Shown: positions 1 through 11,092 of the stretch, in pieces
How the letters are laid out: each line of letters opens with the position of its first letter
Position numbering within the stretch: position 1 is the stretch's first letter
DNA from: an uncultured SAR116 cluster alpha proteobacterium
GTDB lineage: Bacteria; Pseudomonadota; Alphaproteobacteria; Puniceispirillales; Marisalimonadaceae
Assembly (NCBI GenBank): GCA_902593735.1
Contig: CACJJL010000011.1
Location: 1 to 64,000, forward strand
Reading direction: 5' to 3'
Length of the DNA stretch: 64,000 bases
Translations under genes and position numbers: made by a program
The notes under the pieces: generated by a model
Told to the model about the DNA's origin: nothing
The model's database searches: none
What the model saw: the letters and a program-made list of their open reading frames with translations, nothing else

Positions 1-1328
1 TTAAGAAAGGTCTGAATATTCCTATTGCAGGAGTACCGAAACAAGTTATAGTTGACACTAAAATTCCAAAATCGGTAGCAGTTTTAGGTCCTGATTACAA
101 TGGCCTTAAACCTAAAATGTTTGTTAACGTAGGTGATAAAGTTGAACGAGGTTCTCCTCTTTTTTGCCATAAAGACAATCTAGAGGTTCATTTTGTTTCT
201 CCCTGTAAAGGTTTTGTCAAAGAAATCAATAGGGGAGAAAAGAGAGCATTATTAAGTGTAGTTATTGATATTGAAAATTTAGAAGATAAGGGTACTTCAA
301 TAACAAAACTTCATTCTAAAGAAAAATCAAAAAAAGAGTTCACAAAAAAATGCTTGTTTAGCAGTGGCTTATGGACTTCATTTTTAACAAGACCTTACTC
401 AAAAATCCCTGATAGCCAATCTGAACCATCTTCAATTTTTATAACTGCTATGGACACAGAACCACTTAGCCCAGACGCAGATATTATCATAATGAATGAT
501 CAAACCTCATTTGAAGAAGGTGTGAAACGTATTTCACTCTTGACTAATGGTAATGTTTTTATATGTAAAAAAGAAAATAGTGAAATTCGGGTCAATGGTT
601 TTGATACATATGAATTTGCTGGGCCACATCCTGCTGGTTTAAGTGGCACTCATATGCATTTTTTAGACCCACCAAATGCAAATAAGACCGTATGGTCAAT
701 TAATTATCAAGATGTTATTGCAATTGGTAAATTATTTTTAAATGGCTACATTGATATTAATAGAACAATTTCAATCTCTGGTCCTTTATCTAGTAATCCC
801 AGATTAGTAAACACTGTTATAGGTGCTTCCCTTGACGATATCTTAGAAGGAGAATATAACAAAGTAGAGGATTGTAGAATAATTTCAGGATCTATTCTGT
901 CAGGATTTCATGCGTCTGGAGACATGGCTTATTTAGGAAAATATTCTAGGCAGATTACAATTATAAAAGAAGATAAAGAAAAACATTTTTTTGGTTGGAT
1001 TAAACCTCAACCTAATAAATATTCAGTTATGCCTGTACTTTTATCAGCTTTTAGTTTTTTTAAACTATTTAATCTTACCTCAAATTTAAATGGAGGAAGA
1101 AGAGCAATGGTTCCAACCGGTGTTTTTGAATCATTAATGCCACAGGATTTTTTGCCAACACAATTACTTAGGTCTCTTTTGGTAATGGACACCGACGTTG
1201 CTCAATCATTAGGTGTACTTGAACTTGATGAAGAGGACATAGCATTGTGTACTTTTGCTTGCCCTGCAAAATATGAATATGGTACTGCTCTAAGGGACAG
1301 TTTAACAAAAATTGAAAAAGAAGGTTAA
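1..1328 (+). CDS. nqrA: Na+-translocating NADH:quinone reductase subunit A (5' end cut by window)
   Basis: NqrA is the cytoplasmic, cofactor-free subunit of the six-subunit Na+-NQR, which oxidises NADH, reduces ubiquinone and exports Na+. The frame is open from base 3 and reads KKGLNIPIAGVPKQ, the usual NqrA N-terminus, so only about four or five codons lie outside the window. About 441 residues are visible, against roughly 446 in Vibrio. Matching stretches include the GPHPAGLSGTH motif (bases about 630-650). The internal ATG at 117 is not the start because conserved sequence continues upstream of it. It is the first gene of a tight operon, three bases before nqrB. Confidence 0.96.
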   Translation, partial: KKGLNIPIAGVPKQVIVDTKIPKSVAVLGPDYNGLKPKMFVNVGDKVERGSPLFCHKDNLEVHFVSPCKGFVKEINRGEKRALLSVVIDIENLEDKGTSITKLHSKEKSKKEFTKKCLFSSGLWTSFLTRPYSKIPDSQSEPSSIFITAMDTEPLSPDADIIIMNDQTSFEEGVKRISLLTNGNVFICKKENSEIRVNGFDTYEFAGPHPAGLSGTHMHFLDPPNANKTVWSINYQDVIAIGKLFLNGYIDINRTISISGPLSSNPRLVNTVIGASLDDILEGEYNKVEDCRIISGSILSGFHASGDMAYLGKYSRQITIIKEDKEKHFFGWIKPQPNKYSVMPVLLSAFSFFKLFNLTSNLNGGRRAMVPTGVFESLMPQDFLPTQLLRSLLVMDTDVAQSLGVLELDEEDIALCTFACPAKYEYGTALRDSLTKIEKEG

Positions 1329-1331
1329 TTA

Positions 1332-2549
1332 ATGTCATTAAGAAATTACTTCCATTCTATAGAACCTCATTTTGAAAAAGGTGGTAAGTACGAAAAATAC
1401 TACCCTATTTTTGAAATGGTTGAGACAATATTTTTTACAAGTAATACAGTTACAAAAGTTGCTCCGCACGCTAGAAGCTTTGTAGATATGAAAAGGGTAA
1501 TGACCTATGTTGTCATTTCTACTATACCATGTGTCCTATGGGCACTTTACAACACTGGTTTACAGACTAATAGTGCTTTGGCTACTCTAGGTGTTGAAGC
1601 TCAATCAGGATGGCGTATATCGTTGCTTCAATTTATTGGCTTAGGAATTAGTCCTGAGAGTTTAGTTTCAAATATTTTTCATGGATTATTGTATTTTTTA
1701 CCAATCTACTTAACTACTTTAATAGCTGGAGGTATCTGTGAAGTAACATTTGCTACAATCAGAGGTCATGAAGTAAATGAGGGTTTTTTAGTTTCATCTA
1801 TGTTGTTTGCATTAACCTTGCCTGCATCTACTCCTTTATGGCAAGTAGCACTTGGTATTTCCTTTGGTGTTGTAGTTGGTAAAGAAGTTTTTGGCGGAAC
1901 TGGTAAGAATTTTCTTAACCCAGCACTTACAGGTCGTGCATTTTTATATTTTGCGTACCCTGCTTATATGTCAGGAGATTCAATCTGGACACCAGTTGAT
2001 GGATATTCAGGAGCTACTTCTCTGGGAATAGCTGCTGCCGAAGGATATGAAAGTTTGAGTAATTATGGCATCACATGGGCAGATGCTTTTCTAGGAACCA
2101 TTCAAGGATCACTGGGTGAAACGTCTACGCTTGCTTGCGCCATTGGTTTGGTTTTTCTTCTTTTAACAAAAATTGCAAATTACAGAATGGTTGTTGGATG
2201 TCTTTTAGGAATGATCATTTTTTCTACATTTCTTAATTGGGTAGGCTCAGACACAAATCCAATGTTTAGTATGCCTTGGTATTGGCATCTGGTTATTGGA
2301 AGTTATGCTTTTGGATTAGTTTTTATGGTAACTGAACCTGTGTCTGGTAGTCATACTAACCTTGGACGATATATATACGGAGCATTGATAGGTTTTATGG
2401 TTGTAATGATAAGGGTACTAAATCCTGCATTTCCTGAAGGTATGATGTTAGCAATCTTATTTGGAAATATATTTGCGCCATTAATTGATCATTTTGTTGT
2501 TATGGCAAATATTAAAAGAAGGACAAAATTTAATGTCCAAACCCAATAA
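1332..2549 (+). CDS. nqrB: Na+-NQR subunit B, covalent-FMN membrane subunit
   Basis: NqrB is the large membrane subunit that carries covalently bound FMN and riboflavin and forms much of the Na+ pathway and quinone site. The 405-residue protein has many hydrophobic segments from about residue 58 onward. It contains the flavinylation motif SGAT, with the predicted FMN-bearing threonine at residue 229 (codon at 2016). The GTGKNFLNPALTGRAF stretch (around 190-205) is typical of the NqrB/RnfD family. The gene starts three bases after nqrA and overlaps nqrC by 17 bases, which implies translational coupling. Covalent flavin attachment needs an ApbE transferase, and none is encoded in this window. 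Confidence 0.96.
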   Translation: MSLRNYFHSIEPHFEKGGKYEKYYPIFEMVETIFFTSNTVTKVAPHARSFVDMKRVMTYVVISTIPCVLWALYNTGLQTNSALATLGVEAQSGWRISLLQFIGLGISPESLVSNIFHGLLYFLPIYLTTLIAGGICEVTFATIRGHEVNEGFLVSSMLFALTLPASTPLWQVALGISFGVVVGKEVFGGTGKNFLNPALTGRAFLYFAYPAYMSGDSIWTPVDGYSGATSLGIAAAEGYESLSNYGITWADAFLGTIQGSLGETSTLACAIGLVFLLLTKIANYRMVVGCLLGMIIFSTFLNWVGSDTNPMFSMPWYWHLVIGSYAFGLVFMVTEPVSGSHTNLGRYIYGALIGFMVVMIRVLNPAFPEGMMLAILFGNIFAPLIDHFVVMANIKRRTKFNVQTQ

Positions 2550-3324
2550 TATTTTAACTAAATTTAAAAACATGCCAGTTGATGGCATGACTAAAACTTT
2601 ATTTGTTGCTATTACTCTATGTCTTGTTTGTTCTATGGTTGTTTCTTTTGCTGCTGTAAATTTAAAAGAAGTTCAAGAAGTTAACAAAGCAGTTGATAAA
2701 CAAAAAAATATTCTTCAAGTAGCTGGACTTTATTATGATGGAATTGATGTTGAAAAATCATTTTCTTCATTCGAGCCAATAGTCGTTGACTTAAATCAGG
2801 GTAAATTTACAAATCGTTTTGATCCTCTAACTTTTGACGATAGAAAAGCTACACAAGATCCACAATTAAGTATACCATTAAAAGAAGATCCAGCGTCAAT
2901 AGGAAGGAGAACCAACTTTGCAACTGTCTATCTTCTTAAAAAAGAAGATGGATCTCTAGATAAGATTATACTTCCAATACATGGATATGGTTTGTGGTCA
3001 ACATTATATGGTTTTATAGCTTTAGAAAAAAATGGTAATGATATTTTTGGTCTTCAATTTTACCAACATGCAGAAACACCTGGCTTAGGGGCTGAAGTAG
3101 ATAACCCTAAATGGAAAGCTCAATGGAAAGGAAAGAAAATCAACAATGATAGTGGTGAACTGATGATTACAGTAGCCAAAACTCAAAAGTATAAAGATCA
3201 TCATATTGATGCTTTAGCTGGAGCTACCCTTACTTCCAATGGTGTTGATAATTTAGTAAAATTTTGGATGGGTGAGGCTGGTTTTAAAAAATTTCTAACA
3301 AATTTACAAAATGGAGCAGCTTAA
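2533..3324 (+). CDS. nqrC: Na+-NQR subunit C, covalent-FMN subunit
   Basis: NqrC has one N-terminal membrane anchor (about residues 20-40) and a periplasmic FMN-binding domain. The motif AGATLT holds the predicted FMN-linked threonine at residue 232, and the upstream stretch [11 protein letters not shown] is also typical of the family. I chose the ATG at 2533 (MSKPNNIL, 263 residues, close to the usual 257). An upstream in-frame ATG at 2485 would add 16 residues buried inside nqrB and has no family support. The stop overlaps the nqrD start by one base. Confidence 0.95.
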
Positions 3325-3977
3325 TGTCTCAAACTAGGAAACAATTACTTACTGATCCATTGGTAGATAACAACCCTATAACACTTCAAGTCTTGGGAAT
3401 TTGTTCTGCTTTAGCGGTAACATCTTCTTTGAATGTTGCATTTGTAATGTCATTGGCTGTTATAGCTGTTTGTGGCTTTTCGTCTTTATTTATTTCATTT
3501 TTAAGACATTATATACCCAATTCAATTAGAATTATTGTTCAGATGGTTATAATTGCATCCTTGGTAATTCTTGTTGACCAAATCATAAAAGCATATGCTT
3601 ATGAAATTTCTAAAACATTATCAGTTTTTGTAGGATTAATTATTACAAATTGTATTGTTATGGGAAGGGCAGAGGCTTTTGCAATGAAAAATAAGCCATT
3701 TGAGTCATTTGTAGATGGGGTTGGAAATGGTTTAGGATATAGTCTTTTATTGATGAGTGTTGGAGTAATTCGTGAGCTTTTTGGTGCTGGCTCACTATTT
3801 GGGATAATGATTTTTGAACCTGTGAGCAATGGTGGGTGGTATGTTCCCAATGGTTTGTTACTTCTTCCTCCTTCAGCCTTTTTTATTATAGGATTTATTA
3901 TTTGGGGTGTTAGGACATGGAAAAAGTCACAAGTTGAGGCCCGTGAATATAAAATACAAACACTAGAGGAACATTAA
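3324..3977 (+). CDS. nqrD: Na+-NQR subunit D
   Basis: NqrD is a hydrophobic subunit of the RnfE/NqrD family. With NqrE it coordinates a membrane-embedded [2Fe-2S] cluster. The 217 residues contain about six hydrophobic helices. The two conserved cysteines are visible at residue 27 (VLGICSA) and residue 110 ([11 protein letters not shown]). Start and stop overlap nqrC and nqrE by one base each, as in the Vibrio operon. Confidence 0.95.
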
Positions 3978-4585
3978 TGGAAGGTTTGATTTCATTAGCT
4001 GTAAAAGCAATTTTTGTAGAAAATCTAGCTTTATCTTTCTTTTTAGGAATGTGTACTTTTATTGCTGTGTCTAAAAAAATATCAACAGCAATAGGCTTAG
4101 GTATTTCAGTAATGATAGTTCAATCAATAACTGTTCCCGCTAATAATATTATACTTTCATATTTGCTAAAACCAGGTGCATTAGCTTGGGCAGGATTTCC
4201 AGATATTGATTTAACTTTTTTAGGTCTTATTTCTTATATAGGCGTAATAGCTGCATTGGTTCAAATTTTAGAGATGATATTAGACAAATATTTTCCACCA
4301 CTTTATAATGCACTTGGAATATTTCTTCCATTAATAACAGTTAATTGCGCTATATTAGGAGGTTCATTGTTTATGGTTGAAAGAGATTATAATTTTTCAG
4401 AAGCAACAACATATGGAATAGCTTCAGGGTTTGGTTGGGCTTTGGCAATTGCAACAATGGCTGGTGTAAGAGAAAAACTTAAATATAGTGATATTCCTGA
4501 CGGCTTACAAGGACTTGGAATTACTTTTATAACTGCTGGGCTTATGGCAATGGCTTTTATGTGTTTTTCTGGTGTTAAACTTTAA
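3977..4585 (+). CDS. nqrE: Na+-NQR subunit E
   Basis: NqrE is a six-helix membrane protein homologous to NqrD with inverted topology. Together they hold the intramembrane [2Fe-2S] cluster. The 202-residue product is near the usual 198. It keeps the conserved cysteines at residue 26 (FLGMCTF) and residue 124 (TVNCAILGG), and family motifs such as MVERDYNF. It is the fifth gene of the operon, 11 bases before nqrF. Confidence 0.95.
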
Positions 4586-4596
4586 AGGATTAATAA

Positions 4597-5817
4597 ATGG
4601 ATACATTTGTACTCGGTATAACTCTTTTTACAATGATAGTGCTTACTTTAGTTTCAATTATCATATTTGCTAGAAGTAAATTAGTTTCATCAGGAGACGT
4701 AAATATAACCATTAATGGTGAAAAAACTGTATCTGTTCCAGCTGGAGGTAAATTATTACAAACTCTTGCTGCAGAAAAACTTTTTGTTCCGTCAGCTTGT
4801 GGAGGAGGTGGAACTTGTGCTCAGTGCAGAGTTAAAGTTCATTCAGGTGGTGGAGCTATTTTACCTACAGAAGAGAGTCATATTAACAAAAGAGAAGCGT
4901 CTTGTGGGGATCGTTTGTCATGTCAAGTTGCTGTAAAACAAGATATGGAAATCGAAGTTCCAGAAGAAGTTTTTGGCGTTAAAAAATGGAGATGTAAAGT
5001 CAGAAGCAATGATAATGTTGCTACTTTTATAAAAGAATTAATATTAGAACTTCCAGAAGGAGAAGATGTCAACTTCAGAGCTGGAGGGTATATTCAAATC
5101 GAGGCACCAAGTTATTCATTATCATATAAAGATTTTGATGTTGCAAAAGAATACCATGAAGATTGGGATAGATTTAAAATATGGGATTTTAACGCTGAAA
5201 GTAATGAGCCAATAGAAAGAGCTTACTCTATGGCAAATTGTCCTGATGAAAAAGGGATTGTCATGCTAAATGTTAGAATAGCCTCACCCCCGCCTGGTTC
5301 TACAGGAATTCCTGCTGGAAAAATGTCTTCATATATATTCAACTTAAGACCTGGCGATGAGGTAGTAATTTCTGGTCCTTTTGGGGAGTTTTTTGCTCGA
5401 GAAACAGAGAAAGAAATGGTTTTCATTGGAGGTGGCGCAGGTATGGCTCCAATGAGGAGTCATCTTTTTGATCAATTTAATAGAATTAAAACTAAACGTA
5501 AGGTCACCTTTTGGTATGGCGCAAGATCTAAAAAAGAAATGTTTTATGTTGAAGACTTTAATAAGTTAGCTAAAGAGAACTCTAATTTCAGTTGGCATGT
5601 GGCTCTTTCTGATGCAATGCCTGAGGATAAATGGGATGGACTTACAGGATTTATTCATAATGTTTTATATGAACAATATCTAAAGGATCATCCTGCGCCA
5701 GAAGATTGCGAATATTATATGTGTGGACCTCCAATGATGAACCAATCAGTGATAAACATGCTTCTTGACCTTGGTGTTGATAGGGAAGATATTATGCTTG
5801 ACGATTTTGGTGGTTAA
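4597..5817 (+). CDS. nqrF: Na+-NQR subunit F, NADH-oxidising flavoprotein
   Basis: NqrF takes electrons from NADH. An N-terminal membrane anchor (about residues 4-25) is followed by a plant-type [2Fe-2S] ferredoxin domain with cysteines at 68, 74, 77 and 109. Then comes an FAD domain with RAYSMAN, and an NADH-binding domain with [11 protein letters not shown] and CGPPMMN. The 406-residue length matches the family. It is the last gene of nqrABCDEF, and the usual downstream nqrM/apbE genes are not here. Confidence 0.97.
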
Positions 5818-5830
5818 ATGAATTTTCATT

Positions 5831-5859
5831 TATAATTAAATTTATTTTTTTTAATTATA
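5831..5859. repeat. AT-only inverted repeat after nqrF
   Basis: A perfect 10-base inverted repeat (TATAATTAAA at 5831-5840, complement at 5850-5859) with a nine-base T-rich loop lies between nqrF and the NuoL-like gene. It could mark the end of the nqr transcript. It has no G-C pairs and no clean T tail after the stem, so it is at best a weak terminator, and chance is plausible at this base composition. Confidence 0.3.
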
Positions 5860-5890
5860 TTAGTAACATAATCTAAACTTAAAAAGATTA

Positions 5891-7600
5891 ATGACGCTAA
5901 ACATGGAAATTTTAATATTTATTTTCCCATTAATTAGTTTTTTTATTTTTCAGTTTTTCAAACTAAAAATAAAGAATGTAATTTTATACTGTTTTAATAT
6001 ATTATTGCTTATTACATGTCTAATATTAACTACTTACATGTTTTCAAGTTTATTAAATGTGAATAATGCTTCGCCAATAATTTTGTATCCCTTTATTAAA
6101 TCTGATTATTTCTTCATAGATTGGACATTAAGATTTGACCTACTTGTCACAGGATTAATGATGGTTTCAATATTTATTGTTTTGATAACAGTAATTTTTT
6201 CAATTAGCTTTTATAAAAGTCATATAATAAATTGTAAAATACAAAGTGCAACCTCATTATCTTTATTCAGTTTTTTTATATTAGTATCGTCAAATAATTT
6301 AATTCAATTTTTTGCTGGTTGGCATTTGATAATTTTATCATCTTATTTTTTATCTAACATTTTTAATAAAAAAAATAATACTTATAATAATGGTAACGTG
6401 TTTTTATATAATAGAATTTCTGATTTAGTATTTTTTTTAAGTTTATTTTTCATCTACGCTTATACCAAGTCAATTCAGTTTGATTTTATATTTAACAATT
6501 TTGAAATTCTTAATTCGAGTTATTTGTCTTTGTTTATTAAAGATATTAGAGTTTCCGAAATCATTTTTTTTTCATTATTTCTTTCTTTTTTATTAAGATG
6601 TCGACAATTTTTTGTAACAAATTCTAGTTATGATTTTTCTAATTTAGGTATACCATCATTAATTTTAATTATTTATGTTATATTTTTGCCCACTGGTTTA
6701 TACTTTGTCTTAAGGTTTGTGCCTATTACTCACTTTTTAACAGAAAGCTCAAATTTAAATATATTATTAGGTTTTTCTTTAACATCAATTTTTTTATTTT
6801 TATTGTTAAAATCAAAAAATATTAAAGATTTCGTAATTTATAATGCTTCTTGTTTATTTAGTGTTTTATTATTTTCTATTGGTGTCAAATCTTACAACCT
6901 AGCATTGTTTCATTTTCTAACTTCAACTTTGTCTTTAGTATTACTTTGTATGGGTTTTGGTATTATAGTGTCAAATTTAAATAGCGAATATAGCATTAGG
7001 AATATGGGTGGTCTTTTTTTTAAAGCCCCATCAACTTTTTTATTTACTTTAATTGGTAGTTTGTCATTAATAGGAATACCATACTTTTCTGGATTTTATT
7101 CCAATAAACTTCTTTTTTTATCATCCCATTTTATTAATGAATCAATTTATTTATTATCATTAATTATATGCTACATGTACACTTTTGTAATATCATATGT
7201 TTTATTTAAATATATCTTCTCTATTTTTTTTAGTCAGAATAATTGTAATATCCATTTATATAATAAGGTAAATGAAGATTTTTTTTTAAAAAAGTTAATC
7301 CTTTTTTTGCTTTCTATAATTATAATTTTTTTAGGTTGGATTTTGAAAAATTTATTTATTGGTTTGAATGCTGAATATTTATGGGAATTGGTATTAGTTG
7401 GTAATGCAAATTTTTCCATTAATCATGAGGATATTTTTTATGAAAAAAATCAGGAAATTAAAGATATTTTATGCTATTTTGGTATGGCATTAGCTATGTT
7501 TAATTACACGATTTTTTTAAAATTAGGAAATAATATGCGTCTAAAAAATAATAAATTGTATAAATCTTATTTGAAATTTATTTATACTGATAAAAACTAA
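5891..7600 (+). CDS. Degenerate NuoL/ND5-like membrane protein
   Basis: This 569-residue, almost wholly hydrophobic protein resembles NuoL/ND5, the antiporter-like subunit of complex I (about 613 residues in E. coli). Shared landmarks include FFAGWHLIILSSYFL (140-154) for the usual GWE..GLCSYLLI, LYNRISDLVFFL (172-183) for the NRIGD stretch, and NMGGLFFKAP (371-380) followed by SLSLIGIPYFSGFYS (390-404). The channel residues of the family look replaced: Glu after GW is His145, and the loop-and-helix segments that normally hold the key Lys and His read RCRQ (236-239) and TSTLSLV (344-350). No nuoM or nuoN follows. The frame is intact, so it may still be expressed. It lies immediately upstream of birA-coaX-rnj, which in relatives follow nuoN. 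Function unknown. Confidence 0.7.
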   Translation: MTLNMEILIFIFPLISFFIFQFFKLKIKNVILYCFNILLLITCLILTTYMFSSLLNVNNASPIILYPFIKSDYFFIDWTLRFDLLVTGLMMVSIFIVLITVIFSISFYKSHIINCKIQSATSLSLFSFFILVSSNNLIQFFAGWHLIILSSYFLSNIFNKKNNTYNNGNVFLYNRISDLVFFLSLFFIYAYTKSIQFDFIFNNFEILNSSYLSLFIKDIRVSEIIFFSLFLSFLLRCRQFFVTNSSYDFSNLGIPSLILIIYVIFLPTGLYFVLRFVPITHFLTESSNLNILLGFSLTSIFLFLLLKSKNIKDFVIYNASCLFSVLLFSIGVKSYNLALFHFLTSTLSLVLLCMGFGIIVSNLNSEYSIRNMGGLFFKAPSTFLFTLIGSLSLIGIPYFSGFYSNKLLFLSSHFINESIYLLSLIICYMYTFVISYVLFKYIFSIFFSQNNCNIHLYNKVNEDFFLKKLILFLLSIIIIFLGWILKNLFIGLNAEYLWELVLVGNANFSINHEDIFYEKNQEIKDILCYFGMALAMFNYTIFLKLGNNMRLKNNKLYKSYLKFIYTDKN

Positions 7601-7626
7601 CTATAAAAAATTTAGATAACTTTTTG

Positions 7627-8361
7627 ATGATTAAAATTAACTTAAATATCTTAAAAAAATGCTCTAGTACCAATGATGTTGCTATCAATAAGGCTTATGA
7701 AGGATTGCCAGAAGGAAGTTCATATTTGTCTTATTTACAATTAAAAGGAAGAGGAAGAAATGATAAAAAATGGGAGTCATTAAATGGTAATCTATTTTTA
7801 TCAACTATTTTCAGACCAAGTAATGATAGACAAAATTGGCATCAGTTATCTTTAATTGTTGGATATTCAGTGCTTGAAGTTTTATCAAAATTAGGTGTAG
7901 ATAGAAATAAAATTACAATAAAATGGCCTAATGATGTGTTAGTTGAGGGGAAAAAAATTTCTGGAGTTTTATTAGAAGCTTTTGATAGTTTTATTGTTGC
8001 TGGGATTGGTATTAACATAAATAAAACTCCAAAAAATGATTGTAAATGGTATACGACTAAACTAATTGAGCATTCAAATAATTACTTTTCTCTAAAACAG
8101 ATTGCAAATATGTTATTAGAAAAAGTTTTTAAAAATTATTATATTTGGACAAATAGGGGTTTTGTTTTTTTTAAAGAGAAAATTAATAATAATTTAAATA
8201 ATATTAATAAAAAAATCATTGTTAATTTAAATTCGAATTTAAATGATGTCAGTGGGATTTTTGTAGGTTTAGGAGAAAATGGAAGTTTGAAAATTAAAGT
8301 TGATGATAAATATTTTGAATATTATTCTGTCGAAAATTTTTTTTTCCCAAATAAAGTTTAA
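7627..8361 (+). CDS. birA: Biotin--[acetyl-CoA-carboxylase] ligase
   Basis: BirA activates biotin to biotinoyl-AMP and attaches it to the biotin carboxyl carrier protein. The 244-residue protein is the short form without an N-terminal DNA-binding domain, so it should not repress transcription. Catalytic landmarks are SSTND (near 13), KGRGRNDKKW (near 40) and KWPNDVLVEGKKISGVLLE (near 98), which hold the biotinoyl-AMP loop and the biotin pocket. The ATG at 7627 is preferred over the TTG one codon upstream. coaX follows after two bases. Confidence 0.93.
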   Translation: MIKINLNILKKCSSTNDVAINKAYEGLPEGSSYLSYLQLKGRGRNDKKWESLNGNLFLSTIFRPSNDRQNWHQLSLIVGYSVLEVLSKLGVDRNKITIKWPNDVLVEGKKISGVLLEAFDSFIVAGIGININKTPKNDCKWYTTKLIEHSNNYFSLKQIANMLLEKVFKNYYIWTNRGFVFFKEKINNNLNNINKKIIVNLNSNLNDVSGIFVGLGENGSLKIKVDDKYFEYYSVENFFFPNKV

Positions 8362-8363
8362 TT

Positions 8364-9161
8364 ATGATTTTAGCTATTGATTGTGGAAATACAAATACTG
8401 TATTTGCCTTATACACCACAAATAAAAAAATTAAACAATTAGTAAGTTGGAGAATTAATAACGATTCAAATAGGACAGCTGATTTGTATTACCCTTGGTT
8501 GTTAAAGATGTTTGAACTATCAAAATTGGATATTAAAAATGTTACTGGAGTGACTATAGCATCAGTAGTTCCTGGAACACTTGTGAATATAAAATCCTTA
8601 ATTAAAAAATATCTCAATATTACAACATTAATTGTAAATGAAAATATTCTTGATTTGGGGATAAAAGTAAATATTGAGAATCCAAAAGAAGCAGGCGCTG
8701 ATAGATTAGTTAACTCATATGCGGCTGAGAAACTAAAAATTTCTCCTGCTATTATTATTGATTTTGGAACTGCTACAACCTTTGATATTGTTGGCAAAGA
8801 TGGTAGCTACAATGGTGGCATAATTGCCCCTGGGGTAAATTTATCTTTAGAAGCTCTATATCTTGCTACAGCTAATTTACCAAAGATATCACTAAGACCG
8901 TTGATTGACAAGAATACTTCTATAATTGGAAAAAATACAATAAACGCTATGGAGTCTGGTATATTCTGGGGGTATGTTTCAATGATTGAAGGATTAATTG
9001 AAAAAATAAAATCAGTTAATAAATATTCTAATTATAAAGTTGTGGCAACTGGTGGATTAAGTAATTTATTCAAAAAATCGTTAAAAAGTATTGATATAAT
9101 TGTAGATGATTTAACTTTGTTTGGATTGGTAACGTTATATATAAATAATAAAATAAATTAA
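8364..9161 (+). CDS. coaX: Type III pantothenate kinase
   Basis: CoaX phosphorylates pantothenate, the first step of coenzyme A synthesis. The 265-residue protein has the ASKHA-fold phosphate loops DCGNTNTVFAL (6-16) and DFGTATTFDIV (near 132). It also has the pantothenate-site stretch EAGADRLVNSYAA (near 111) and GGIIAPGVNLS (near 151). It is co-directional with birA and rnj, an order often seen downstream of nuoN in alphaproteobacteria. Confidence 0.95.
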   Translation: MILAIDCGNTNTVFALYTTNKKIKQLVSWRINNDSNRTADLYYPWLLKMFELSKLDIKNVTGVTIASVVPGTLVNIKSLIKKYLNITTLIVNENILDLGIKVNIENPKEAGADRLVNSYAAEKLKISPAIIIDFGTATTFDIVGKDGSYNGGIIAPGVNLSLEALYLATANLPKISLRPLIDKNTSIIGKNTINAMESGIFWGYVSMIEGLIEKIKSVNKYSNYKVVATGGLSNLFKKSLKSIDIIVDDLTLFGLVTLYINNKIN

Positions 9162-9178
9162 TTATCAGAAATAAAATA

Positions 9179-10834
9179 ATGAATTGGGATAAATCAGACT
9201 TATTATTTTTGCCTGTAGGTGGCTCAGAAGAAATAGGTATGAATGCAAATTTGTATCATTATGATGGCAAATGGATATTAGTGGATTTTGGCATTTCATT
9301 TCCTGATGAGACAGACTTAGGTATTGATGTTTTATTACCAGATTATGAATTCATTGATTCTTTAGGAAATAATTTTTTAGGTATTATTCTAACTCACGGA
9401 CATGAAGATCACATAGGTGCAATACCATATTTTGCAGATAAGATAAATTGTCCTATCTGGGGTACACAATTTACTATTGCTCTCTTAAAAAGAAAATTAA
9501 AAGAAAATAATAAAAATAATGAAATTAAATTAAAAACTTTAAATATTGATGAACAATTTAATGTTGGTCCCTTTAGATTAAAAGCAGTAAAAACTTCACA
9601 TTCAATTCCTGATCCAGTATCAATTTTAATTTCTACAGATATAGGAAATATATTTCATTCAGGGGATTGGAAATTAAATACTGCTTCAAATATTAATGAA
9701 AATGTCGACATAAATCATTTTCTATCTTTAGGAAAAGATGGAATTTTGGCAATGGTATGTGATTCTACCAATGCTTTAGTTGAAGGGAGAACACCATCAG
9801 AGGATTTTGCATATGATGGGTTAATGGAAATTATACCAAAGATAAAAGGAATGGTGCTTGTTACTTGTTTTTCTTCAAATATAAGTAGAATTAAGTCTTT
9901 ATTAGATATAGCTAAAAAATCTGATAGATCTGTCTTAATTATTGGTAGAGCGCTTTTGAGAGCAATTGAAGTAGCAAAAGAGGTTGGAATTTTAGATAAT
10001 TTACCTGATTTATTGACTGCAAATAACCTTAATTTAATTCCCAGGAATAATGTTTTAATTATTTCTACTGGATCTCAAGGTGAACCCAATTCAGCTCTAA
10101 GCAGAATTTCTAAAGGTGCTGATAAATTTATTAAACTAAAAAAAGGTGACTCAATAATTTTTTCTAGTAGAAAAATACCTGGTAATGAGAATGCGATATT
10201 AAAGGTTCAGAATCGATTTCTAGAGATGGGTGTTGAAATAATTACTGATGATGACAAAAATGTACATGTTTCAGGTCATCCTTCAAAAGATGAGTTGGTA
10301 GAAATGTATTCTTATATTAAGCCTAAAATTTCTATTCCAGTGCATGGCACTAGAGAGCATATTAATGCACACGCGGATTTAGCACGTCAATGTCAAGTAC
10401 CACAGATTATAAAACCTAAAAATGGAGATGTAATAAAATTAAGTGGATCTTCTCCCAGTGTAGTTTCAAGAATTAATTTTACTAATAATGTTTATGATGC
10501 TGGTGAAATAGTTCCTATAAATAATGAGAGATTTACAGTCAGAAGACATTCACTATGGAATGGCTTCGTAAGTGTTTCAATTGTTATTAATGAAGAAGGT
10601 TATCTAGCTTCCCCTCCTCAGATATCTCAAGTAGGAGTATCTGACAGTAAATTGATGGAAAATTTTTTAGTAAATATATCTTTAAAAATTGAAAATTTGA
10701 TTGATGAAAATTCTTTAACAATAATAAATTCTAACGATGATATTTATGAAAAAATCAAAAAATTAATAAGAAGCGAATTTAAATCAATTTATTTTAAGAG
10801 ACCAACAATAAGTATTCATATCAATAGAGTTTAA
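9179..10834 (+). CDS. rnj: Ribonuclease J family protein
   Basis: RNase J is a metallo-beta-lactamase/beta-CASP nuclease with endo- and 5'-exonuclease activity in RNA decay and maturation. The zinc motif HGHEDHIG has His73, His75, Asp77 and His78. Further ligands lie in HSIPD, HSGDWKLN, CDSTNAL, SGHPSKDE and HGTREH. The 551-residue length is normal. It follows coaX after 17 bases and probably shares its transcript. Confidence 0.95.
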   Translation: MNWDKSDLLFLPVGGSEEIGMNANLYHYDGKWILVDFGISFPDETDLGIDVLLPDYEFIDSLGNNFLGIILTHGHEDHIGAIPYFADKINCPIWGTQFTIALLKRKLKENNKNNEIKLKTLNIDEQFNVGPFRLKAVKTSHSIPDPVSILISTDIGNIFHSGDWKLNTASNINENVDINHFLSLGKDGILAMVCDSTNALVEGRTPSEDFAYDGLMEIIPKIKGMVLVTCFSSNISRIKSLLDIAKKSDRSVLIIGRALLRAIEVAKEVGILDNLPDLLTANNLNLIPRNNVLIISTGSQGEPNSALSRISKGADKFIKLKKGDSIIFSSRKIPGNENAILKVQNRFLEMGVEIITDDDKNVHVSGHPSKDELVEMYSYIKPKISIPVHGTREHINAHADLARQCQVPQIIKPKNGDVIKLSGSSPSVVSRINFTNNVYDAGEIVPINNERFTVRRHSLWNGFVSVSIVINEEGYLASPPQISQVGVSDSKLMENFLVNISLKIENLIDENSLTIINSNDDIYEKIKKLIRSEFKSIYFKRPTISIHINRV

Positions 10835-10843
10835 TTTAGATAG

Positions 10844-11092
10844 ATGAGTTTAGTATCTTATATTGTAGTTTTTTTAATAAATTGGATGATTTTGTTTTTT
10901 ATGTCTCTTCCAATAGGGGTAAATGTTTCTGAGAAACATGAAAAAGGATTAGCTAGCTCTGCACCAGATAAACCTAATTTGAAAATAAAAGTTCTTGGTT
11001 CATTTATAATATCATCTATTCCATCTTCCGTTATTTACTGGGTAGTTGAAAAGGAAATATTTAATAAATTCTTTAACATTACTATTTTATAA
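10844..11092 (+). CDS. DUF1467 family small membrane protein
   Basis: An 82-residue protein with two predicted membrane helices (about residues 4-26 and 50-68). The pattern MSLPIGV followed by GLASSAPDKPNLKIK matches the DUF1467 family, which usually sits beside rnj in alphaproteobacteria. No function is established. The start is nine bases after the rnj stop, so it is likely the last gene of the birA-coaX-rnj run. Confidence 0.8.
   Translation: MSLVSYIVVFLINWMILFFMSLPIGVNVSEKHEKGLASSAPDKPNLKIKVLGSFIISSIPSSVIYWVVEKEIFNKFFNITIL

Follow-up and report, generated by a model that had tools for sequence, protein, structure and literature searches.

The window analysed here is a stretch of 64,000 nucleotides from an uncultured SAR116 cluster alphaproteobacterium of the Marisalimonadaceae (contig CACJJL010000011.1, assembly GCA_902593735.1), which starts at position 1 of its contig and belongs to a genome of 1.81 Mb that is 84% complete. 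It shows nqrABCDEF, the genes of the Na+-translocating NADH:quinone oxidoreductase (Na+-NQR), followed by a single NuoL-like gene and by birA, coaX and rnj, all on the plus strand, according to the list of open reading frames (ORFs) and a Pfam scan. The NuoL-like protein, named here solitary NuoL, has lost most of the residues of the proton wire and the C-terminal part by which NuoL is clamped to its complex I neighbours, yet its gene stays open and under purifying selection. The full explanation that is somewhat favoured is that a disarmed NuoL fold has been retained and reused as a non-pumping lone membrane protein, and reuse in some form is probable. The features on which this rests are the following:

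5903..7600, plus strand: solitary NuoL, a NuoL-derived membrane protein of 565 aa with 15 transmembrane (TM) helices, without the lateral helix and TM16
6323..6325, plus strand: codon of His145, in the place of E. coli NuoL Glu144, by alignment (Tyr in eight, Gln in five and His in one of 14 copies)
6596..6598, plus strand: codon of Arg236, in the place of Lys229, by alignment (Arg in 14 of 14 copies)
6935..6937, plus strand: codon of Leu349, in the place of the middle lysine, Lys342, by alignment (Leu in 11 and Val, Phe and Thr in one each of 14 copies)
7235..7270, plus strand: QNNCNIHLYNKV, the loop motif, in the loop between TM13 and TM14 that is assigned as cytoplasmic, from the conservation profile

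The ORF of solitary NuoL spans 5891-7600 (569 codons) and has an alternative ATG at 5891, but the start shared with its relatives is the ATG at 5903, which gives 565 aa. The protein matches PF00361 (E=6e-19) and the NCBIfam NuoL model (E=6e-53), both well above chance. Its score against TIGR01974 (NuoL), 180.7 bits, is under the cut-off of 407.5, yet NuoL is the best-matching NCBIfam family. A predicted model, built with 16 copies that come mostly from the same genomes under public names, shows the NuoL fold of TM1-15 in a structure comparison. The C-terminus ends where the lateral helix (HL) starts: the alignment stops before HL and TM16 in all 14 full-length copies, and the match to the E. 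coli chains reaches no further than residues 531-534.

Among 37 genomes of the genus, 14 contain a full-length copy, five contain fragments at contig ends (G003, G009, G014, G020 and G024), two show a clean absence of the gene (G027 and G030), six have an nqr contig that ends at or before it (G001, G011, G016, G023, G033 and G034), and in 10 neither nqrB nor solitary NuoL was found. Two further genomes, G067 and G068, contain full-length copies, and G066 contains a C-terminal fragment in which the listed TAG is the normal stop. The gene has a G+C content of 20-22%, which may make amplification or assembly difficult. The nqr contigs of several single-cell genomes (L059, L060, L062, L063, L065 and L066) stop within about 200 bases of its start. 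At E<=1e-95, solitary NuoL was found in one of 385 genomes of the class, the window's own, in an even draw in which the genus had one member. Scanning genome contigs for the motif gave 18 loci: 17 are SAR116 or alphaproteobacterial and one belongs to Magasanikbacteria (24% identity). An exact-motif scan of viral contigs gave no relatives, and a phage or viral origin was discarded, two Acinetobacter "phage" records (nuoL_2) being only 23.5% identical.

The 14 full-length copies were aligned to E. coli NuoL, with the window copy in its 569-aa numbering. The window copy shows His145 for Glu144, Arg236 for Lys229, Ile261 for His254, Ser345 for His338, Leu349 for Lys342, Asn405 for Lys399 and Lys406 for Asp400, and retains His334 (as His341), Arg175 and Asp178. 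Glu144, Lys229, His254, His338, Lys342 and Asp400 are replaced in all 14 copies, the place of Glu144 being occupied by Tyr, Gln or His and that of Lys229 by Arg. The positions lost are canonical in eight of eight NuoL proteins of sister lineages, and 142 columns that are invariant in canonical NuoL are variable in solitary NuoL. Judged from these replacements, the protein would conduct no protons. The original prediction, made from the letters of the window alone, had read the gene order correctly, as it had the landmarks NRISD, MGGLFFKAP and GIPYFSGF, all present, the intact frame of 569 codons, shortened to 565 aa by the conserved start, and the change of the Glu of the GWE motif to His145. 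It had also proposed that the later Lys and His positions are non-ionisable, which holds for most of them in the window copy and fails for His334, which is kept, Lys229, which is Arg, and Asp400, which is Lys.

The genes around solitary NuoL point to its source:

3..1328, plus strand: nqrA, 5' end lost at the contig edge (PF24836, PF05896 and PF11973)
1332..2549, plus strand: nqrB (PF03116, E=5e-95)
2533..3324, plus strand: nqrC, 78-98% identical in tblastn to genes in the same position in relatives, named by order
3324..3977, plus strand: nqrD, an ORF in the same order in relatives, named by order
3977..4585, plus strand: nqrE, an ORF in the same order in relatives, named by order
4597..5817, plus strand: nqrF (PF00111, PF00970 and PF00175)
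7624..8361, plus strand: birA (biotin ligase), the ancestral 3' neighbour (PF03099; same place in relatives)
8364..9161, plus strand: coaX (type III pantothenate kinase; PF03309)
9179..10834, plus strand: rnj (ribonuclease J; PF22505 and others)
10844-11092: ORF of 82 aa behind rnj, whose place fits DUF1467, a label given by place only

The names nqrC, nqrD and nqrE rest on the match to relatives and on gene order, and not on Pfam. Eight of eight relatives, which come from four families and represent, among others, two further genera of the window's family, have the order nuoL-nuoM-nuoN-birA-coaX, followed by rnj in stretches that extend far enough, so nqr occupies the former site of the upstream nuo genes and solitary NuoL the former site of nuoL. 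The genes upstream of nqrA in three genus loci differ from those upstream of nuoA in four other loci; since the upstream genes also vary among nuo-bearing families, the left border of the swap is uninformative. An apbE-like gene, named by eye, is divergent and upstream of nqrA in L095, L097 and L098, and the window contig stops short of this place. ApbE is a flavin transferase needed for NQR maturation. A consensus scan found no terminator between nqrF and solitary NuoL, with scan counts not above those of shuffled sequences. The G+C content at third codon positions, 0.14-0.18 in solitary NuoL and 0.14-0.23 in the nqr genes of four genomes, is uninformative as a hint of expression.

The distribution of both complexes agrees with a swap. 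In a survey of 61 genomes, 37 of the genus and 24 of other families in the order, NuoD is found in one of the 37 and in 23 of the 24, NuoH is distributed likewise, and NqrB is found in 25 of the 37 and in none of the 24. The window's genome, at 84% completeness, gave no match to NuoD or NuoH, and NuoM and NuoN were not found in it; it contains three PF00361 genes besides solitary NuoL, all of them Mrp genes. The single genus genome positive for NuoD is G029, a metagenome-assembled genome (MAG) from the Black Sea listed at 5% contamination, which bears its own contig with nqr and solitary NuoL and has the nuo genes on other contigs (C68 and C96). Since the rnj on C68 is only 35% identical to that of the window, against 45-50% in other families, and because of the contamination listed, the nuo contigs of G029 are probably foreign, a judgement short of proof. 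The complementary distribution and the synteny support the proposal that Na+-NQR replaced complex I and left one subunit, and the full nuo operon that would have contradicted it was not found.

The available text of PMC8547437, published in 2021, reports in one sentence the nuo-to-nqr swap with an adjacent nuoL in the SAR116 genera LGC2-C and LGC2-D, and from its family name and its nqr genes the window's genus would be one of these. The named relatives with solitary NuoL are SAR116 single-cell genomes and MAGs, including SCGC AAA536-G10, and AAA536-G10 is a family name in PMC8547437, which also describes complex II as undetected in genus LGC2-C. In IMCC1322 complex I is present and NQR is absent, as given in the accessible part of PMC11813361. 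PMC8879329 uses NuoL as a marker, and no mention of nqr or SAR116 was found in its accessible text.

The reading frame of solitary NuoL is uninterrupted in each of the 16 full-length copies, and the one TGA listed in four copies is just 5' of the conserved ATG, outside the frame. In codon models (F3X4) fitted to 13 of the 14 copies, G018 being left out since its contig ends in birA, omega, the ratio of nonsynonymous to synonymous change, is 0.12 for solitary NuoL, 0.087 for birA, 0.059 for rnj, 0.046 for coaX, 0.026 for nqrC, 0.016 for nqrB and 0.008 for nqrF. Pairwise NG86 estimates, taken from pairs with synonymous divergence (dS) <1, have a median of 0.27 for solitary NuoL (range 0.18-0.69, 43 of 91 pairs), 0.22 for birA, 0.12 for rnj and 0.017 for nqrF. 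When one copy was evolved neutrally with the observed composition, it had gathered 11 stops on average and never fewer than five at 91% nucleotide identity; at three divergences, with 60 replicates for each, no frame stayed open. About 80 columns are invariant among the 14 copies.

The most conserved 12-residue stretch of solitary NuoL, with a mean pairwise identity of 0.89, is the loop motif QNNCNIHLYNKV, in which N446, I450, H451 and K455 are invariant among 16 copies. It stands where canonical NuoL has the HESP-containing TM13-TM14 loop. The N-terminus of NuoL is periplasmic, and for this reason the TM13-TM14 loop is assigned as cytoplasmic; in four copies whose helix borders were placed by eye, the loops so assigned contain 16-22 Lys and Arg residues versus five to eight in the periplasmic ones.

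A tree of nine neighbour genes with 37 tips divides the genus into four groups: G029 with G066, G027 with G030, the G013 group and the window's group. Three of these groups have solitary NuoL; it is cleanly absent from the fourth, G027 and G030 (pair support 1.0), where nqrF and birA are separated by a gap of about 84-103 bp and nqr is intact. This pair stands beside the G013 group with a support of 0.09; whatever its true position, the gene must have been lost, as nuoL stands at this site in the outgroups. The stem of solitary NuoL in the NuoL tree measures 2.0 substitutions per site (the internal branches within SAR116 NuoL measure 0.01-0.19) and would correspond to a burst of change following the swap. 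Identity to the window within the genus is 36-51% for solitary NuoL and 54-67% for birA (one birA being partial), and the identity between the two sister genera is 73% for canonical NuoL and 42% for birA; from these figures, the protein went from slower to faster than birA. The stretch of the window from solitary NuoL to birA (5903-8361) is unusually distant from its close relatives, with dS about 0.9-1.1 to G032, compared with 0.16-0.25 in nqrA-F and 0.5-0.7 in coaX and rnj, which are near. In the tree of solitary NuoL the window's copy falls outside its group in the neighbour-gene tree. An import of this stretch by recombination is possible.

The following course is proposed. Solitary NuoL would derive from the organism's own complex I NuoL. 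At the stem of this SAR116 genus, nqrABCDEF would have taken the place of the nuo genes at the same locus, with nuoM and nuoN lost and nuoL kept. The freed NuoL could then have lost the lateral helix and TM16, the clamp to its neighbours, and the wire residues, and purifying selection has since maintained it as a lone protein of 15 TM helices. This truncation would be bearable only after the complex was lost; when E. coli NuoL is cut near its C-terminus, the quinone reductase activity of complex I is 7-14%, as reported in the available text of PMC3274701. Protons would leak through a lone NuoL whose wire was intact, since lone Nqo12 without its transverse helix conducts them, so that a cut wire would be favoured if the fold was kept for another use. 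A retained fold with a cut wire agrees with a use other than pumping. Glu132 and Lys385 of Thermus Nqo12 presumably correspond to E. coli Glu144 and Lys399. In the experiments described in the accessible part of PMC11496545, Nqo12 lacking the transverse helix (residues 516-605/606) conducts protons in liposomes, E132Q raises conduction and K385I blocks it, and K235M, of the middle lysine, blocks the sister protein Nqo13.

As to the new job, it is possible, though tentative, that solitary NuoL is a non-conducting scaffold whose cytoplasmic TM13-TM14 loop would dock a partner protein, as DabB carries DabA. The proposal arises because the new cytoplasmic loop is the best conserved part and because DabB meets DabA cytoplasmically; the contacts involve DabB helices 11-14 and the cytoplasmic interface (PMC13144422, available text). 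A wider view, that a pump subunit outlived its complex and was trimmed and wire-cut to become a new stand-alone membrane protein, a docking platform or a sodium path, in the sodium-based energy economy of a bacterial group common in the surface ocean, is a little short of an even chance.

Several observations weigh against a disarmed and reused NuoL. The gene is the fastest-evolving one at the locus, the five printed pairwise omega values of the window copy are 0.32-0.56, which means weaker constraint or saturation, and two genomes live without it, so that it is dispensable at least there. The wire is not removed evenly, as Lys399 is kept in four, His334 in eight and Lys305 in 10 of the 14 copies. 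The N-terminal stretch nearly equals the loop motif in conservation (0.88 vs 0.89), the G029 copy of the motif, KNKGNIHEFNKI, is looser, and the confidence of the predicted model is medium. In the NuoL tree the protein stands beside all SAR116 NuoL (support 83) and outside its own family (77 against), a misplacement that may be an effect of such a long branch.

Among other explanations, the one that survives best, although unlikely, is that solitary NuoL is an accessory subunit of Na+-NQR that binds the complex and stabilises or tunes its ion flow, as the original prediction had suggested by way of example. The gene lies directly behind nqrF on the same strand in 14 of 14 loci fetched (the window and L041-L053), it is found only within this nqr-bearing genus, and with the complex I role gone a new membrane partner is plausible. 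However, the position beside nqr is inherited from nuoL, nqr is kept without solitary NuoL in G027 and G030, and in the available text of PMC8547437 HTCC2181, with a related nqr, has no nuoL there. NqrA-F shows no extra changes in this pair: of 1427 sites that are otherwise invariant, five bear fixed changes unique to it, and the other groups have nine, 15 and 38, which, coming from two genomes, argues weakly against an NQR role. NqrB and NqrF also evolve under far lower omega than solitary NuoL (0.016 and 0.008 vs 0.12), and an NQR role finds no support past position and co-occurrence.

Still less likely is a lone Na+ path that works alongside NQR and Mrp in a cell that cycles sodium. Both NQR and Mrp are in the cell, and in the accessible part of PMC4938563 NuoL substitutes for MrpA in the Na+ tolerance of B. 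subtilis and still rescues, with a lag, when it bears E144Q, K229A or H254A, at positions that are altered in solitary NuoL. The loss of Lys342 and His338, outside the mutant set given in that part, removes more of the wire, and it is not obvious what a cell with a Na+ pump would gain from letting Na+ leak freely. Mrp, moreover, is ancestral and looks complete without solitary NuoL, with one large subunit in 30 of 37 genus genomes and 19 of 24 others, and a link between the two was ruled out on these counts. The subunit counted is the gene of 565 aa in an Mrp-type antiporter cluster on another contig of the window's genome, C16 (L054:4124-11440), where the PF00361 genes are three separate ones (496, 485 and 565 aa) and a long fused MrpA is lacking. 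As to the ion channel offered as another example in the original prediction, one for protons is unlikely given the residue losses.

A slowly decaying relic kept by chance would fit the loss in one genome pair, the identity of only 36-51% to the window copy and the wide residue loss at the 142 columns, and is improbable in view of the 16 open frames, the omega of 0.12 and NG86 median of 0.27, the at least five stops expected under neutrality at 91% identity and the invariant columns. Of decay and reuse, the two options offered by the original prediction, reuse is thereby favoured, and omega is not near the value of 1 that a pseudogene would give. A DabB/MpsA-type subunit of a transporter of dissolved inorganic carbon is very improbable: DabB likewise is related to NuoL, stands alone and has a shortened C-terminus, but it retains and needs two His and a Lys (PMC13144422, available text), whereas in solitary NuoL His338 and Lys342 are replaced in 14 of 14 copies and His334 is kept in eight, DabA (PF10070) has no match in the window's genome, which at 84% completeness is not final, and NCBIfam ranks NuoL first.

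With a disarmed and reused NuoL as the favoured reading, the genus offers a natural experiment on the fate of a respiratory pump subunit after the loss of its complex, and suggests that, when a sodium pump replaces a proton pump, a leftover part can come to be maintained by selection. About 16 full-length orthologues, a genome pair that lacks the gene and the intact NuoL of sister genera are material that allows tests of the proton-carrying residues and of the reuse of a pump fold.

Compared with NuoL/ND5/Nqo12, the distal antiporter-like subunit of complex I, solitary NuoL differs in that no complex I partners were found, the lateral helix and TM16 are missing and the wire residues are replaced. 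MrpA has a homologous antiporter-like fold, but the window copy scores at most 24 bits against the NCBIfam subunit A models and its gene is outside the Mrp cluster. DabB/MpsA is alike in being a lone NuoL relative with a short C-terminus and a replaced ion-pair Glu (Ile151 in DabB), and unlike in keeping Lys235, His339, His343 and Lys347 and in pairing with DabA, according to the available text of PMC13144422. The engineered Nqo12 delta-TH described in PMC11496545 (accessible part) is, like solitary NuoL, a single protein cut after TM15 with its C-terminus on the cytoplasmic (N) side; it keeps the wire and conducts protons, whereas solitary NuoL is without the middle Lys and the ion-pair Glu. 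Evolution has nearly reached the truncation made by biochemists, altering Lys and Glu positions found to control conduction. The swap in LGC2-C and LGC2-D is the same event with the same adjacent nuoL, and PMC8547437 is the only description of this lone nuoL found in the open-access literature; its section 8 is silent, in the available text, on NuoL residues, truncation, selection, loss and function, and no account of the fate of the leftover protein was found in that literature, the scope of which does not include figure S4 of PMC8547437. The outline of the arrangement is already published, and the disarmed yet kept state of the leftover subunit is the new part.

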